NCBI GenBank assembly: GCA_944386015.1 | Contig: CALWZK010000015.1 | Location: 1-42,668, forward strand | DNA: 42,668 bases | Direction: 5' to 3' | Origin: an uncultured Faecalibacterium sp. | GTDB taxonomy: Bacteria; Bacillota; Clostridia; Oscillospirales; Ruminococcaceae | Shown here: in pieces, positions 224 through 6,235 of the stretch | Layout: each line of letters opens with the position of its first letter | How positions within the stretch are numbered: the first letter of the stretch is position 1 | The notes under the pieces: model-generated | What the model was told of the DNA's origin: nothing | Databases searched by the model: none | What the model saw: only the letters and a program-made list of their open reading frames with translations | Position numbers and translations under genes: made by a program

Positions 224-1273
224 TTATTCCCCTTCGCCCTGGATGCGCTGGTCCAGCATCTGTTTCAGGTGCTCGTTGTACTCCCTGGTGCGGTCCAGGA
301 ATTCCTGCCGGGGCAGGGCGGCATAGGCCTGCTCCACCGGCAGTTCCACGGCCTGGCCTGTCTTTTTGGCGGCCTGGGCCTGGAGCTTGCGGTTGTCCGC
401 CGAGACGGCCAGGTTGACCATCAGAGCCTGGTTTTTGTACTTGCGGCTGAGGATCACCTGGGCGATCAGGCCGCCGACGATGGCCACGGCTGCCACCAGC
501 TGGGAAGCCCGCAGGCCCAGGGCGGGCACCAGCAGCAGGCTGTCGGTCCGCAGTCCCTCGATCCAGAACCGGCCCAGGCCGTACCAGATGGCGTACAGCA
601 GGGCAATATCGCCGTTGAAGCGGCGTTTTTTCATGTAGAGCCGCAGGGCCACAAAGCCCACCAGGCACCAGATGCTCTCATACAGGAAGGTGGGGTGCAC
701 CGGCATGGTGGGGTCGATGGTGACCCCGTTGGGCACCGTCACGGTGCTGCCGCTGAGGTAGGCCTCGGTGGCAGCGCTGTACATGCCCCAGGGCAGGGTG
801 GTGTTGCAGCCGAAGGCCTCCTGGTTGAAGAAGTTGCCCCAGCGGCCCAGGCACTGGCCGATCAGAAAGCCCATGGCAGTGAGGTCAAACATGGGCAGCA
901 CCGGGATTTTGCGCCACTTGCAGGCCAGGCCGCCAAAGATGATGGCGCCAATCACGCCGCCGTAGATGGCGATGCCGCCCTGGCGTATATCCAGCATCTC
1001 CCAGATGCTGTTGTAGGCAATGGGCGACATGGCCACATAATAGATCCGGGCGCAGATGATGGACATCACCACGCCCACCACCAGCACATCCACCATGGCA
1101 TCGCCGTCAATGCCGAACTCGGCGCAGTGACGGAACGCAAACACCATGGCCAGCATGATGCCCACCGCAATCACGACGCCGTACCAGTAGATGTTGATGC
1201 CTCCAATGGTGAAGGCCACCCGGTTGATCTCAAAGCTGAGACCCAGACCCGGGAAGGTTACGAGATTTGTCAT
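224..1273 (-). CDS. lgt: Prolipoprotein diacylglyceryl transferase
   Basis: Lgt transfers the diacylglyceryl group of phosphatidylglycerol to the lipobox cysteine of prolipoproteins in the cytoplasmic membrane; the solute-binding lipoprotein at 14421-15959 is one expected substrate. The 349-residue product is a multispanning membrane protein and carries the family signature GRWGNFFNQE at residues 143-152. The ATG at 1273 follows an AAGGAGG site. The protein is longer than usual: after the last membrane span (about residue 270) there is a charged, Ala/Gln/Glu-rich tail of roughly 75 residues, probably cytoplasmic. It is the last gene of the run M15-like, yfmF, yfmH, lgt, 21 nt after the yfmH stop. 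Confidence 0.96.
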   Translation of the reverse strand: MTNLVTFPGLGLSFEINRVAFTIGGINIYWYGVVIAVGIMLAMVFAFRHCAEFGIDGDAMVDVLVVGVVMSIICARIYYVAMSPIAYNSIWEMLDIRQGGIAIYGGVIGAIIFGGLACKWRKIPVLPMFDLTAMGFLIGQCLGRWGNFFNQEAFGCNTTLPWGMYSAATEAYLSGSTVTVPNGVTIDPTMPVHPTFLYESIWCLVGFVALRLYMKKRRFNGDIALLYAIWYGLGRFWIEGLRTDSLLLVPALGLRASQLVAAVAIVGGLIAQVILSRKYKNQALMVNLAVSADNRKLQAQAAKKTGQAVELPVEQAYAALPRQEFLDRTREYNEHLKQMLDQRIQGEGE

Positions 1274-1294: not shown

Positions 1295-2596
1295 TCAGTC
1301 GTTGTCCGCAGAATCCCCTGCCGCCGAGCCGTCGGGCAGAATCCGCACCCGGGCCATCCGGCCGGGCTGCAGAATCTTCTGCAAAGCTACGTCGGCATCC
1401 TCGGCCGTCAGGCCGGCCAGCATCTCGATCTGCTGGGCCACCGTCTGGCCCATCAGGGCAAAGTCCGCCATCTGGCTGGCGGCGTCCTCTACATTTTCCA
1501 GGTTTTCCACCAGCTGGCCGTACTTTTCGTTTTTGCACAGGGTGAAGACCTCCCGGTCCACTCCCTGGGCCCGGACCCGCTCGATCTCGTCCAGCAGCAG
1601 CTGCTCCACCTGATCGGGGGTGTCGCTTTCGCCGGTGAACAGGATGCAGCAGCAGCCGTCCACCCGCAGCACCTCGCCCCCGAAGCCGGGGTTCACCAGG
1701 CCTTCATCGTACAGCCGGCGGTACAGCGGGGACATGCCGCCGCTGATGCAGCACAGCACCAGCTCATACAGCATTTCGGTGCGGCCGTCCCCGGGGGCCA
1801 GGGGCTCCTCTTTATAGCCGATGCCGAAGCAGGGCTTGGACACCGCCATGGGGAGGGTTTTCCAGGTCTGGACCAGGGTCATGGGCTCTTCCACCCACAG
1901 CCGCCGGGCAGCCGGGCTGGTGACCGGCTTGTCCAGCCCCGCCCGGGCGCAGGCGTCCAGCACCTGCCGGGCGGTGATGTTCCCTGCCGCCGCCAGCACC
2001 AGGTTGGAGGGGGCGTAGAAAGCTTTGCAGCAGTCGTACAGCATCTCAGGGGTGATCTTTGCGATGCTCTCGCAGGTGCCTGCAATGTCGCTGCGGATGG
2101 GGTGGGTGTGGTACAGGCACTGGCACAACTCGGTAATCAGCCGCCAGTCGGGGCTGTCCTGGTACATTTTGATTTCCTGGGCAATAATTCCCTGTTCCTT
2201 TGCCACCGTTTCCTCGGTAAAATAGGGATGGGTCACCATTTCCAGCAGCACATCCAGGCTCTCCTCCACCGCGTTGGTGGCGGTGAAGTAGTAGCAGGTG
2301 CGGTCAAAGCTGGTGAAGGCGTTGGCGTTGGCGCCGGTGCGGGCAAACTTGGCAAAGGCATCCCCTTCCTGGTCCTCAAACATCTTGTGTTCCAGGTAGT
2401 GGGCCACACCGGCGGGGAGGGTCAGTTCCTCCTCCCCCAGCCGGAAGTGGAGGTCGATGGAGCCGAACCGGGCCGCCACAATGGCGTGGGCGGCGGAGTA
2501 GCCCGGCATGGGCCGCACCAGCACCGTCAGCCCCGAGGGCAGTACATAGCGCTCATTGCCGGCACAGTCCAGAATGGCGCGAAGATGATCAGACAT
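1295..2596 (-). CDS. yfmH: M16 family zinc peptidase, YfmH/YmfH type
   Basis: The 433-residue protein has the inverted zinc motif HxxEH of pitrilysin-like M16 peptidases (HYLEH, residues 66-70) and the distal acidic ligand region in EQGIIAQEIKMY near residue 147, so it should be the catalytic half of the pair. The start ATG overlaps the end of yfmF by 8 nt, implying translational coupling and probably a heterodimer. In Bacillus subtilis the homologues YmfF/YmfH sit beside the reductase YmfI and are needed for normal 5-aminopentanol modification of elongation factor P; this functional link is known for Bacillus and is only inferred here. No YmfI lies next to the pair. Confidence 0.9.
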   Translation of the reverse strand: MSDHLRAILDCAGNERYVLPSGLTVLVRPMPGYSAAHAIVAARFGSIDLHFRLGEEELTLPAGVAHYLEHKMFEDQEGDAFAKFARTGANANAFTSFDRTCYYFTATNAVEESLDVLLEMVTHPYFTEETVAKEQGIIAQEIKMYQDSPDWRLITELCQCLYHTHPIRSDIAGTCESIAKITPEMLYDCCKAFYAPSNLVLAAAGNITARQVLDACARAGLDKPVTSPAARRLWVEEPMTLVQTWKTLPMAVSKPCFGIGYKEEPLAPGDGRTEMLYELVLCCISGGMSPLYRRLYDEGLVNPGFGGEVLRVDGCCCILFTGESDTPDQVEQLLLDEIERVRAQGVDREVFTLCKNEKYGQLVENLENVEDAASQMADFALMGQTVAQQIEMLAGLTAEDADVALQKILQPGRMARVRILPDGSAAGDSADND

Positions 2597-3869
2597 AGGC
2601 CCCCTCCTTTGTGGTCAAGAGATAGCTGACCGACAGGCTGAACCGCCGTAGCACCGAACGGACCTGGTCCACGGTGACGGCGGCCAGATCGGCCCGGGCC
2701 TGCTGGGGGGTGGTGATGGCGCCGCCCCGGATCATCTCCATGGCGTACCAGCTCTCGATGCTGCCCAGGGAGTCCTCGATGCCGGCCAGGCCGTCCATCA
2801 GGCCCCGGCGGCAGTCTTCCAGCTCCTGGCTGGTGATGGGGCCGGTGCACAGGTCGGCCAGCTCGTTCAGAATGGCATTCTCGGCCCGGGCGGCGTCCCC
2901 CGGCTCAATGCCGCTGGACACCACCATGCTGCCGGTGAAGCTCTGGAAGGAGGAGGCACAGTAGTAGCACAGGTGATCCCGCTCCCGGACGTTCAAAAAC
3001 AGCCGGCTGGTGACGCTGCCGCCATAGAGGGCCATGGCCAGCCGGAAGGCGGCCAGCTCGGCCAGATCCATCGGCTTGCCCAGGGTGAAGGCCAGGCACA
3101 GCTTGGCCTGGACCATATCAAAGGTTTCCACCTTGTGGACCGGGATCTGCCGGGGCATGGCCAGGAAGGCCATGGGGCCGACGGGCCGGCGGCGGATTTT
3201 GCCCAGTTCTTCCATAAAAGCGGCTTCCACCCGCTGGGTTTCGGCGGGGGTGCAGCCCAGAACCATCAGTTCAATGGAAGCGGTGGAGAGCATTTCCTCA
3301 TAAGCGGCGGCCAGGTCCTGGCCGGTGAGGCCGTCCACCTCTTCCAGGTAGCCCTCCTGCCGGATGCCCATGGGGCTGTCCCCATAAAACTCCCGGGCGG
3401 TCTGGCGCATGCAGTACAGCCGCTTGTCGTTCAGTTCGTCCTCCAGGGACTGGCGGAGCATCTGCTTTTCGATGGCCACCGCCTCGGCGTCAAAGGCGCC
3501 GTCGGCCATGCAGGGGTGGAAGGCCACCCCCAGCACCAGCTCGGTGTAGGCCTGGCTCAGGGATTCCCCCGCCAGGGCAAACCGGTCCTTGATGCCGGTG
3601 ACGCTGACGCACAGGTTCCGGCTGGCCCCCATGGGCCGGCCGTCCACCGCCAGGTCGGCCCCGTACAGCCGGGCCAGCTTTTTGGTCAGGCCGGTCATGT
3701 CGGGGCAGCCGGCATAGCCCCGCTCCATCACCAGCGGCAGCAGGGCGTGGGCCGTGGCGGTTTCCCGCCGGGCCGGAAAGGTAAAGTGAATGCTGATCCG
3801 GCACCGGTTCAGTTTTTGGGCCGGGTCATAGGAGAGATGCACCCCAGGTGCAAGCTGCTTACGTTCCAA
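2589..3869 (-). CDS. yfmF: M16 family protein without zinc motif, YfmF/YmfF type
   Basis: This 426-residue protein has the M16 fold but no HxxEH: the equivalent region reads ATAHALLPLVMERGYAG. It is therefore the probable non-catalytic partner of the downstream zinc peptidase. The start is TTG at 3869, supported by an AGGAGG site 10 nt upstream and by the product beginning MERKQLAPGVHL. A perfect GC hairpin (3886-3902) sits directly against the Shine-Dalgarno and could affect translation. Pairs of one active and one inactive M16 subunit are well known, as in mitochondrial processing peptidase. The role in EF-P modification is transferred from Bacillus. Confidence 0.88.
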   Translation of the reverse strand: MERKQLAPGVHLSYDPAQKLNRCRISIHFTFPARRETATAHALLPLVMERGYAGCPDMTGLTKKLARLYGADLAVDGRPMGASRNLCVSVTGIKDRFALAGESLSQAYTELVLGVAFHPCMADGAFDAEAVAIEKQMLRQSLEDELNDKRLYCMRQTAREFYGDSPMGIRQEGYLEEVDGLTGQDLAAAYEEMLSTASIELMVLGCTPAETQRVEAAFMEELGKIRRRPVGPMAFLAMPRQIPVHKVETFDMVQAKLCLAFTLGKPMDLAELAAFRLAMALYGGSVTSRLFLNVRERDHLCYYCASSFQSFTGSMVVSSGIEPGDAARAENAILNELADLCTGPITSQELEDCRRGLMDGLAGIEDSLGSIESWYAMEMIRGGAITTPQQARADLAAVTVDQVRSVLRRFSLSVSYLLTTKEGAYV

Positions 3870-3929: not shown

Positions 3930-4763
3930 TCAGCTGAGCTGATGGACCGCCACAAATTCCTCCAGGGACAGGCCGCTGGCCGCGATGGCCCGGGCATTCT
4001 CCACCCCTACATACCGCCAGTGCCAGGGCTGGTACACCATGCCGGTGACAGCCTGGCAGTCCTTCGGCCAGCGGAGGATGAAGCCATAGTCGGCGGCGTA
4101 GGCCTCCAGCCAGCGGAAGGCGTCGGTGTCGGCAAAGCCGGTGTCCAGGGTGGTGTAGTCGGCGGACAGGATATCCGCCGTCAGGCCGGTGCCGCTCTCG
4201 TTGCAGCCGGGCCGGGGCACGATGGCCGCTGCACGGCTGTCTGCCTCCTCCTCCGACATGCCCTCATCCAGATAGGTCTGTTTCCGGGCGTCAAAGGCCT
4301 GCTGCTGGCGGTCGGGGCTCTGGTAGCCCTCCACCAGGGTCAGCTGGATGCCCACCTCCTGCGCTGCAGCGGACATGGATTTCCAGGCCTGGGCCGCCTG
4401 CTGTTCCAGCTGCTGGCCCGAGGCCTCGTCCGCCACCGCCAGGGTGGGGGCGGTGTCATCGGCCTGGGGGAGGTTGTTGTTCACCAGCACCAGATAGGGG
4501 TCGCTGGCGTCAAAGACATAGCCTGACAGGTCATAGCTGGGGGCGATGAAGTCCTGCCCGCCCCCCATCCGTTTGCTGATCCGGGGCAGAGCCCAGAGGA
4601 TGAGGCCGGTCATCAGCCCCACCAGGACGGCGCAGGCCGACAAAAAGAGAACCCAGTTGCGGATCAGCCGGATTCTGCGGCGGCGGCGCCGGGCCAGCCA
4701 CTGTTCCCGCGTCAGGCGGGGCCGGCCGGCGGCGCTGGCCGGGGGTCGTTGTTTGTGTTCCAT
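3930..4763 (-). CDS. Membrane-anchored M15/VanY-like protein, predicted catalytically dead
   Basis: The 277-residue protein has a basic N-terminus, one transmembrane segment (about residues 35-59) and an extracytoplasmic M15B D-Ala-D-Ala carboxypeptidase domain. Family landmarks are clear (GYxS, GxxxxGLxxDI, PWHWRYVG), but the key residues differ. The GYRS arginine is Gln148. The first zinc histidine of SEHQTGLAVD is Ser190 in CNESGTGLTAD. The catalytic glutamate of EPWH is Gln245. Asp197 and His248 remain. An active zinc peptidase is therefore unlikely; a wall-binding or regulatory pseudoenzyme is possible. It is the first gene after the promoter at 4832-4860, ahead of the M16 pair and lgt. 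The codons were read directly from the DNA and are not frameshift artefacts. Confidence 0.85.
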   Translation of the reverse strand: MEHKQRPPASAAGRPRLTREQWLARRRRRRIRLIRNWVLFLSACAVLVGLMTGLILWALPRISKRMGGGQDFIAPSYDLSGYVFDASDPYLVLVNNNLPQADDTAPTLAVADEASGQQLEQQAAQAWKSMSAAAQEVGIQLTLVEGYQSPDRQQQAFDARKQTYLDEGMSEEEADSRAAAIVPRPGCNESGTGLTADILSADYTTLDTGFADTDAFRWLEAYAADYGFILRWPKDCQAVTGMVYQPWHWRYVGVENARAIAASGLSLEEFVAVHQLS

Positions 4764-4831: not shown

Positions 4832-4860
4832 AGTATACCGCTTTTGCCGCCGTCTGTAAA
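4832..4860 (-). promoter_or_regulatory. Sigma-A promoter for the M15-like/yfmF/yfmH/lgt run
   Basis: The -35 box TTTACA (4860-4855), 17-nt spacer and -10 box TATACT (4837-4832) lie 69 nt upstream of the ATG at 4763 and downstream of the lysC terminator. Confidence 0.8.
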
Positions 4861-4906: not shown

Positions 4907-4936
4907 AAAAAGAGCCGCCGGTTGAAACGGCGGCTC
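4907..4936 (-). terminator. Intrinsic terminator after lysC
   Basis: On the minus strand GAGCCGCCG-TTTCAAC-CGGCGGCTC forms a perfect 9-bp stem with a 7-nt loop, followed by TTTTT. It starts 16 nt after the lysC stop and closes the pheB-hom-thrB-lysC operon. Confidence 0.92.
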
Positions 4937-4952: not shown

Positions 4953-5414
4953 TCAGTGGAACAGGCTGTCGTGGATGGCGCTGACGGCGCGGTCGGCCTC
5001 TTCCTTGTCGATGATGCAGGAGATCTTGATCTCGCTGGTGGAAATCATGTGAATGTTGATGTTGCTGTTGGACAGGGCCTCGAACATGCTGGCGGCCACA
5101 CCGCTGTGGCTCTGCATGCCGGCGCCCACGATGGACACCTTGGCGCAGCTGTTGTCGCAGGTGACCTCGGAGAACTTGGCGCTCTCCTTCAGGGTGCGCA
5201 CCGCAATGGGGGCGTCGCCCTGGGAGCAGGTGAAGATGACGTCCTTCTTGCCCTCGCGGCCGGTGGACTGGAGAATGATGTCCACGTTGATCTTCTTCTG
5301 GGCCAGCAGGCCGAAGATCTTGAAGCTCATGCCGGGCTCATCGGGGACGTTCATGATCGTGACGACAGAGACATCGGTGTCTTTGGCGACACCCTTGATC
5401 AGCATACCTTCCAT
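4953..5414 (-). CDS. lysC: Probable internally initiated aspartokinase beta subunit
   Basis: Within lysC, TTAAGGAGG (AAGGAGG at 5432-5426) lies 11 nt ahead of an in-frame ATG at 5414, which would give a 153-residue product covering both ACT domains. A second ATG follows three codons later. Bacillus subtilis aspartokinase II is known to make its beta subunit from an equivalent internal start near codon 247, and the same position is seen here. The local codons (GTT AAG GAG GTT GCA AAA GAA) are unusually A/T-rich for this GC-rich gene, as expected if an accessible initiation region is under selection. Confidence 0.75.
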   Translation of the reverse strand: MEGMLIKGVAKDTDVSVVTIMNVPDEPGMSFKIFGLLAQKKINVDIILQSTGREGKKDVIFTCSQGDAPIAVRTLKESAKFSEVTCDNSCAKVSIVGAGMQSHSGVAASMFEALSNSNINIHMISTSEIKISCIIDKEEADRAVSAIHDSLFH

Positions 5415-6152
5415 TTCTTTTGCAACCTCCTTAACCACTGTGCCCGGCACCGGGTTCAGGCTGGAGAGCACCTCCAGCTCCACGTTGTATTTCTTGGCAA
5501 GCTCCACGCTGCGGTTGTTCAGCACCTGGGCACCCAGGCTGGCCAGCTCCAGCATTTCGTCAAAGGTAATCTCAGGCAGCTTGCGGGCATTGCGCACCTT
5601 GCGGGGATCGGCGGTGTAGACGCCCTCCACGTCGGTGAAGATCTGGCAGCGATCGGCGTGCAGGGCAGCCGCAATGGCCACTGCACTGGTGTCCGAGCCG
5701 CCGCGGCCCAGGGTGGTGATGTCGTCCAGCTTGTTCAGCCCCTGGAAACCGGCCACAACCACCACGCGGTTGCGCTCCAGCTCCGAGGTGATCCGCTCGG
5801 TGTCCATCCGCCGGATCCGGGCCTTGGTGTAGGCACGGTCGGTGCGGAAGCCTGCCTGCCAGCCGGTGAGGCTGGTGGCGTGGCAGCCCAGCTCGTTCAG
5901 AGCCATGGCCAGCAGCGCGATGCTGATCTGCTCGCCGGTGGCCAGCAGCATATCCATCTCGCGGGCGGAGGGGTTATGGGTAATCTCTGCCGCCTTGGCG
6001 ATCAGGTCGTCGGTGGTGTCGCCCTGGGCGGACACCACCACAACCACGTCATTGCCTGCATTGTGGGTGTTGGCCACAATGCGTGCCACGTTGAAAATAC
6101 GCTCGCGGTCGCGGACCGATGAGCCGCCGAACTTTTGTACGATCAACGCCAT
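4953..6152 (-). CDS. lysC: Aspartokinase (alpha subunit, full-length product)
   Basis: This enzyme phosphorylates aspartate in the first step of the lysine/threonine/methionine pathway. The 399-residue protein begins MALIVQKFGGSSV, the kinase signature, has the substrate-binding region TTLGRGGSDTSAVA, and ends in two ACT domains expected to bind amino-acid effectors. I place the start at the ATG at 6152, behind a GAGGAGAG site, rather than at the in-frame GTG three codons upstream. It is the last gene of pheB-hom-thrB-lysC. Inside the gene a very strong Shine-Dalgarno precedes Met247, which would give a second product (separate entry). Feedback inhibition is expected from the ACT domains, but the effector cannot be read from sequence. 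Confidence 0.96.
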   Translation of the reverse strand: MALIVQKFGGSSVRDRERIFNVARIVANTHNAGNDVVVVVSAQGDTTDDLIAKAAEITHNPSAREMDMLLATGEQISIALLAMALNELGCHATSLTGWQAGFRTDRAYTKARIRRMDTERITSELERNRVVVVAGFQGLNKLDDITTLGRGGSDTSAVAIAAALHADRCQIFTDVEGVYTADPRKVRNARKLPEITFDEMLELASLGAQVLNNRSVELAKKYNVELEVLSSLNPVPGTVVKEVAKEMEGMLIKGVAKDTDVSVVTIMNVPDEPGMSFKIFGLLAQKKINVDIILQSTGREGKKDVIFTCSQGDAPIAVRTLKESAKFSEVTCDNSCAKVSIVGAGMQSHSGVAASMFEALSNSNINIHMISTSEIKISCIIDKEEADRAVSAIHDSLFH

Positions 6153-6235
6153 ACTTGTCACTCTCCTCTTTGTCTTCCTCTATCAACAGTGGGCGTTCAT
6201 CCCCAAATGGTTTTGGTTCTTCCCTTTTCCCTCTG

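Follow-up and report, generated by a model that had tools for sequence, protein, structure and literature searches.

A maintained series of probable VanY/LdcB-type (M15B) pseudoenzymes upstream of ymfF-ymfH-lgt in Faecalibacterium

The locus and its genes

The window, the whole stretch of 42,668 nucleotides that was analysed, comes from an uncultured species of Faecalibacterium, an abundant gut commensal. Close to its first letter it encodes a protein related to the VanY/LdcB-type carboxypeptidases, members of family M15B. The open reading frame that an earlier note had placed at 3930-4763, with no strand given, is present on the minus strand, and the plus-strand frame over the same positions does not encode it. 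The features of the locus are the following.

4953..6161, minus strand: lysC, aspartate kinase, upstream neighbour in a separate unit
4912..4936, minus strand: terminator-like hairpin after lysC
4832..4860, minus strand: promoter-like sequence TTTACA-17-TATACT, with a core conserved in each of the 10 genus upstream regions that were aligned
3930..4763, minus strand: gene for the probable VanY/LdcB-type (M15B) pseudoenzyme, 277 amino acids, ATG start
4593..4652, minus strand: membrane anchor, about residues 38-57, with an Arg-rich stretch before it (hydropathy and sequence)
4005..4415, minus strand: VanY (PF02557) domain, residues 117-253 (Pfam and fold model)
2589..3869, minus strand: ymfF (yfmF), M16 peptidase-like, next gene of the unit
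1295..2596, minus strand: ymfH (yfmH), M16 peptidase with the motif HYLEH
224..1273, minus strand: lgt, prolipoprotein diacylglyceryl transferase

The promoter, membrane anchor and ribosome site that the earlier note had described can all be located. The TTTACA-17-TATACT promoter occurs once against 0.2 occurrences expected from shuffling, and its conservation was judged by comparing the -35 and -10 cores in the upstream regions of 10 of the 31 genus genomes; the ribosome site AAGGGAG lies five bases 5' of the ATG, and the 19-residue window from residue 38 has a mean Kyte-Doolittle hydropathy of 2.55. Given the hairpin after lysC, the gene seems to open its own transcription unit, ahead of ymfF-ymfH-lgt; ymfF stands beside it in 30 of 31 genus loci.

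The YmfF protein of the window scores 252.9 bits, below the NCBIfam cut-off of 285, and has no HxxEH in its sequence; the motif occurs somewhere in 2 of the 30 genus YmfF rows. Homologous M16B pairs form heteromeric peptidases, and Bacillus subtilis YmfF/YmfH cleaves lanthipeptide precursors with low efficiency, according to the accessible part of PMC8960859; YmfF and YmfH are also counted among the putative proteases of the inner spore membrane in the accessible part of PMC13393411.

The VanY domain is recognised by Pfam over residues 117-253 with an E-value of 1.8e-30, above the Pfam cut-off, and the nearest solved relatives in sequence are YodJ/LdcB and VanYB (phmmer). The curated NCBIfam cut-offs are not reached (vanY_BG 87.9 of 400 bits, vanXY 83.5 of 250, LdcB 75.6 of 275), nor are they by the intact second VanY-type protein of the same genome. 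With the window protein so far below these thresholds, a role as a glycopeptide-resistance gene is unsupported.

The active site and the predicted fold

In the three best phmmer alignments to solved M15B enzymes, Arg, His and Glu stand opposite Gln148, Ser190 and Gln245 of the window protein. Residues 148, 190, 197, 245 and 248 are Q, S, D, Q and H, so that both the three replacements and the two retained residues, Asp197 and His248, are as the earlier note had read them. Two further pocket changes had gone unmentioned there: Asn replaces a conserved Ser at position 188, and Trp a conserved Tyr at position 232. The positions of the principal codons are given below.

4320..4322, minus strand: codon 148, Gln for the carboxylate-anchoring Arg (SpLdcB Arg120)
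4200..4202, minus strand: codon 188, Asn for the conserved Ser (matched by spacing to SpLdcB Ser151)
4194..4196, minus strand: codon 190, Ser for the His that is the first zinc ligand (SpLdcB His153)
4173..4175, minus strand: codon 197, second zinc ligand, retained as Asp
4029..4031, minus strand: codon 245, Gln for the catalytic Glu (SpLdcB Glu204)
4020..4022, minus strand: codon 248, third zinc ligand, retained as His

In SpLdcB, Arg120 forms a salt bridge to the product carboxylate and is Arg or Lys in LdcB orthologues, the zinc ligands are His153, Asp160 and His207, and Glu204 is the equivalent of Gln245 in the window protein (PMC4087270). The E204A variant of SpLdcB is weakened and not reported to be dead, so Gln245 by itself does not prove inactivity, and weak metal binding is possible since Asp197 and His248 remain. 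The positions with which LdcB reads its substrate (Arg148, Ser188 and Tyr232) are all changed, and this makes it less likely that the original D-Ala ligand is still bound. The retained Trp247 and the remaining core would leave a cleft, but one that probably no longer reads a terminal D-Ala. As a candidate M15B carboxypeptidase, the protein has the VanY-domain sequence and the predicted fold and lacks the His-Asp-His zinc triad, the Glu of EPWH and the carboxylate-binding Arg (or Lys); it has the sequence marks of a pseudoenzyme, with catalytic residues lost, the gene under selection and an M15B fold predicted.

A structure prediction, which the earlier note had proposed, gives an M15B fold. 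The model of residues 84-277 has a pLDDT of 92.1 and a pTM of 0.87, and because 9 of the 15 rows of its input alignment were canonical relatives these values show compatibility of the sequence with the M15B fold and do not prove that the protein folds. VanYB is the first Foldseek match in the PDB (6a6a, TM 0.81, E 1.2e-17), followed by BsLdcB (TM 0.76), BaLdcB, VanXYc and VanXYg; hedgehog domains appear in the list at E-values above 1 only. A previous model, built on an alignment of only 7 rows, was of low quality (pLDDT 61) and was discarded.

Distribution and loss of catalytic residues in the genus

A syntenic copy is found in all 31 Faecalibacterium genomes of the genus set, which includes that of the window, and none has an internal stop. 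The ymfF gene follows directly in 30 loci and the contig ends at this point in the other (G017). Upstream, lysC is seen in 22 of 31 loci, most of the other nine having been read with flanks of at most 1.5 kb; two genomes (G020 and G025, loci L092 and L093) have no lysC within about 5 kb. The conserved synteny and the grouping of the 31 copies in one clade (support 100/98) rule out a misplaced paralogue.

At the five sites the 31 copies read QHDEH in seven, QSDQH in four, RHDEH in three and QQDAH in two, with QSDEH, QSSER, QSSQR, QRLQH, QSEEH, MADQH, QSEQH, QSEQR, QLDQH, QQDEH, LHDEH, QYDAH, QYDEH, RYDEH and RHDQH in one copy each. The carboxylate-anchoring Arg is missing in 26 of 31, the first zinc His in 19 and the Glu in 14, and all five catalytic residues are kept in three copies. 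The Gln/Ser/Gln combination, whose conservation across related genomes the earlier note had proposed to examine, is not a common feature: the exact set QSDQH occurs in only 4 of 31 copies, and it is the loss as such that the genomes have in common. Similar losses in many genomes, the nearest at 90% identity, also rule out an artefact of a single assembly. That nearest relative (G001, locus L004) has Gln148 and Ser190, yet Glu at position 245. After loss of the zinc His, Glu245 seems to be free to vary.

In eight genomes (seven QHDEH and one LHDEH) the Arg alone of the five sites is lost. These keep the zinc ligands and the Glu, which is more than a purely non-catalytic role would require, and their proteins may still be zinc enzymes. 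Position 153, Gln in canonical enzymes, is Arg in 18 of the 27 altered rows (for example L016-L024), one of which also has Arg148, as though the charge had shifted along the helix. The loss of Arg148 together with Arg153 in the rows with an intact zinc site would be a possible change of specificity.

In a survey of 295 genomes of the order, the Gln form of the motif EPWH[x]RYVG was found in three, all Faecalibacterium, and the Glu form in 133; four members of the genus had been drawn, and the zero-mismatch DNA patterns undercount both forms.

Orthologues outside the genus and a second VanY-type gene

Twelve loci from outside the genus, a non-random set, were selected because of their wide flanks from the matches in 119 genomes drawn from the family. 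In nine of them (L078-L085 and L094; not L087, L095 or L096) the gene precedes ymfF-ymfH-lgt, and all nine of these syntenic orthologues are RHDEH.

The genome of the window also encodes an intact second VanY-type protein (RHDEH) at G000:C10:37656-38225 (L001:1414-2340, minus strand). Such a second gene is found in 29 of the 31 genus genomes, not in G009 and G027; 28 of the 29 copies are RHDEH and the remaining one, a fragment, is HDEH where covered. The second copies form a clade of their own (100/99). Matches to the S11 D,D-carboxypeptidase family number 3-6 per genome in all 31 genomes, so trimming capacity is probably redundant. Simple relief of the first copy by the second is an incomplete account of the losses, since both copies are intact at the covered sites in G017 and G018, and G009 has an intact first copy with no second one found.

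When the intact paralogue was used as query in a viral scan, no relative was found. One IMG/VR contig (L098:1246-2100) encodes an intact VanY protein that begins with a hydrophobic stretch and is 36-43% identical to the window protein; the contig is possibly cellular DNA in a viral bin.

Selection and pocket-focused change

The dN/dS of the gene is 0.11-0.30 in 15 close pairs (NG86), which include one pair (G010/G030) with a dS of merely 0.02. The intact second copy gives 0.11-0.30 in 14 pairs, ymfF 0.02-0.27 and lysC up to 0.12, and in the pairs compared the dN of the pseudoenzyme gene is higher than that of lysC and ymfF. Among eight full-length pairs in which the first zinc His is missing from both members, dN/dS is 0.09-0.21 for the VanY domain by itself, and the gene as a whole departs strongly from neutrality (Fisher p 8e-10 to 2e-24). 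All 31 genus copies have a hydrophobic segment, with a window mean of at least 1.89. A recent pseudogene is ruled out by the absence of stops in all 31 copies, the low dN/dS and the conserved promoter core, and the same evidence (31 of 31 copies stop-free, dN/dS of 0.11-0.30 in 15 pairs, promoter core kept in 10 of 10) upholds the view that the gene is maintained and not decaying. Intact orthologues in close relatives, named in the earlier note as the sign of recent decay, are not what is seen: the nearest relatives also lack the Arg and the His, the very nearest (90%) having the Glu, and fully intact copies are confined to three deep-branching genomes. The gene thus looks like an old, maintained pseudoenzyme rather than a recent decay.

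Within the domain, 36 columns are invariant in 41 canonical rows and 17 of these vary among the 27 altered rows. The varying columns account for 8 of the 9 in the pocket and for 9 of the 27 elsewhere (Fisher p 0.006), a p-value that is no more than indicative, the pocket list having been drawn up after the alignment had been seen. The list holds the residues named in PMC4087270 that are also invariant in the canonical rows, with Tyr191, Gln125 and Ser151 placed by their spacing from neighbouring motifs rather than by structure overlay. The canonical rows comprise the nine syntenic orthologues from outside the genus, the 29 second copies and the three intact genus rows; 16 other VanY proteins, one of which has His for Arg, are omitted, and G027 stands outside the 27-row altered clade. 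Some of the eight varying pocket columns vary little, the last His in 3 of 27 rows. Judged from the alignment, the loss is concentrated in the pocket.

Order of events

In a protein tree built without the five columns, the three intact copies are the earliest branches and G027 (RHDQH) comes next, followed by the clade of 27 genomes, 26 of which lack the Arg. The minimum numbers of changes between canonical and altered states on this tree are 2 for Arg, 2 for the first His, 2 for Asp, 7 for Glu and 3 for the last His; on the independent YmfF tree of 30 rows, from which G017 is missing because its contig ends, they are 2, 2, 2, 8 and 3, and G027 pairs with the intact G009. Replacements of His190 follow lineage, with Ser, Ala, Arg or Leu in one part and Gln or Tyr in another. 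Since the outgroups are canonical and the replacements are lineage-specific, we infer that the His was lost at least twice and after the loss of the Arg, although parsimony counts of this kind do not separate loss from regain.

Proposed evolution from enzyme to pseudoenzyme

The reading preferred here, which is probable and somewhat short of strongly so, is that in Faecalibacterium an ancestral M15B carboxypeptidase was turned into a maintained non-catalytic protein. The ancestor would have been a working membrane-anchored M15B carboxypeptidase encoded before ymfF-ymfH-lgt. By parsimony, the carboxylate-anchoring Arg would have been lost near the base of the 27-genome clade, and the first zinc His and the catalytic Glu later, with Asp and the last His following in some lineages. 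From the known mechanism, a protein with neither the first zinc ligand nor the catalytic Glu, such as that of the window, would not be expected to cut stem peptides. It is very probable on sequence grounds that the 19 proteins from which the zinc His is missing, that of the window and 18 orthologues, are inactive and maintained. A binding or regulatory role related to peptidoglycan has about even chances; the protein might now act by binding, as a guess in the manner of EnvC or DipM, as an extracellular adaptor for stem peptides or for a wall enzyme.

The changes in the pocket could also be taken as a shift of specificity rather than the death of an enzyme, in which the loss of Arg148, with Arg153 and Asn188, altered the substrate, part of the genus still has a peptidase and the zinc-poor lineages came later. 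All eight Arg-only genomes keep His190, Asp197, Glu245 and His248 and all eight have Arg153, as do 18 of the 27 altered rows overall. This is nevertheless rather unlikely, since the first zinc ligand is missing from the window protein, which has Gln at 153, and from 18 other orthologues, and since residue 245 switches between canonical and other states 7 or 8 times on the two trees, as expected of a residue that has become irrelevant. A more conservative proposal, that the protein is still an ordinary carboxypeptidase by way of Asp197, His248 and a substitute ligand, could draw on the retention of these two residues in the window and on Glu189, beside the lost His, a position where 25 of the 27 altered rows have Glu and the other 2 have Asp. 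Glu189 is, however, equally kept in the canonical enzymes, and Asp197 or His248 is lost or changed in QSSER, QSSQR, QRLQH, QSEEH, QSEQH and QSEQR, so that no single metal site is common to the clade; the proposal is accordingly improbable.

Slow decay of a redundant gene, its activity covered by the second VanY-type gene and several S11 carboxypeptidases, would fit the presence of the second copy in 29 of 31 genomes, the 3-6 S11 matches in every genome and the dN above that of lysC and ymfF, but decay is hard to reconcile with 31 stop-free copies, a dN/dS in the range of the intact copy, a promoter core kept in all 10 aligned regions and a hydrophobic segment in all 31 copies; of the alternatives it is given the lowest probability. 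An elaboration of the preferred reading, conversion to a maintained non-catalytic protein, would make the protein a receptor anchored in the membrane, which would either sense stem peptides, free or nascent, or hold a wall enzyme and would signal to the adjacent, probably co-transcribed YmfF-YmfH pair, its role having changed first, with the loss of the Arg, and its zinc site having then been dismantled independently in several lineages. As a whole this is a long shot, and a functional link to YmfF/YmfH, suggested by gene order, is speculation.

Relation to known inactive peptidases

The window protein shares with LdcB/DacB (YodJ) and the VanY-type enzymes the Pfam VanY domain, the predicted fold, the Asp, the last His, the Trp and the structural core, and differs from them in the replacement of the first zinc His, the Glu, the Arg and the pocket Ser and Tyr. 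The hedgehog N-domain is treated as an M15 pseudopeptidase, with its status called open, in the accessible part of a 2024 review of inactive metallopeptidases (PMC11266112). It is a likeness in that an M15-type fold is used for binding; hedgehog, as described there, is an animal signalling protein that keeps its zinc ligands, whereas the window protein is a bacterial M15B protein that has lost the first. The degenerate LytM (M23) proteins EnvC, NlpD and DipM, as portrayed in the portions of the literature available, are likewise inactive relatives of wall peptidases kept for regulation, but they belong to family M23 and their activation of enzymes has been demonstrated, whereas for the window protein it is a guess. 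The M16 pseudo-subunits of the alpha-MPP type, in the same accessible part of the review (PMC11266112), provide the case of an inactive homologue beside active ones, which the neighbouring YmfF, also without HxxEH, recalls; alpha-MPP differs in having the M16 fold and in being, on that account, the obligate partner of an active subunit, and no such partner is known for the window protein.

In the accessible main text of that review VanY and peptidoglycan do not occur, and the literature search found no described bacterial M15B pseudoenzyme, which is weak evidence, subscription papers having lain mostly outside the search. For M23/LytM, the sources as far as available describe catalytically inactive relatives that control wall hydrolases, and none was found for bacterial M15B. 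The genus-wide series of selectively maintained, probable M15B pseudoenzymes is real; it is ordinary in kind, pseudoenzymes being common, and unusual in its family and in the side-by-side presence of intermediate stages. One gene at one locus in one genus is represented in natural genomes by intact, arginine-less, zinc-less and fully dismantled forms, and with these stages side by side, the sequence of steps by which a pseudoenzyme arises can be tested directly.
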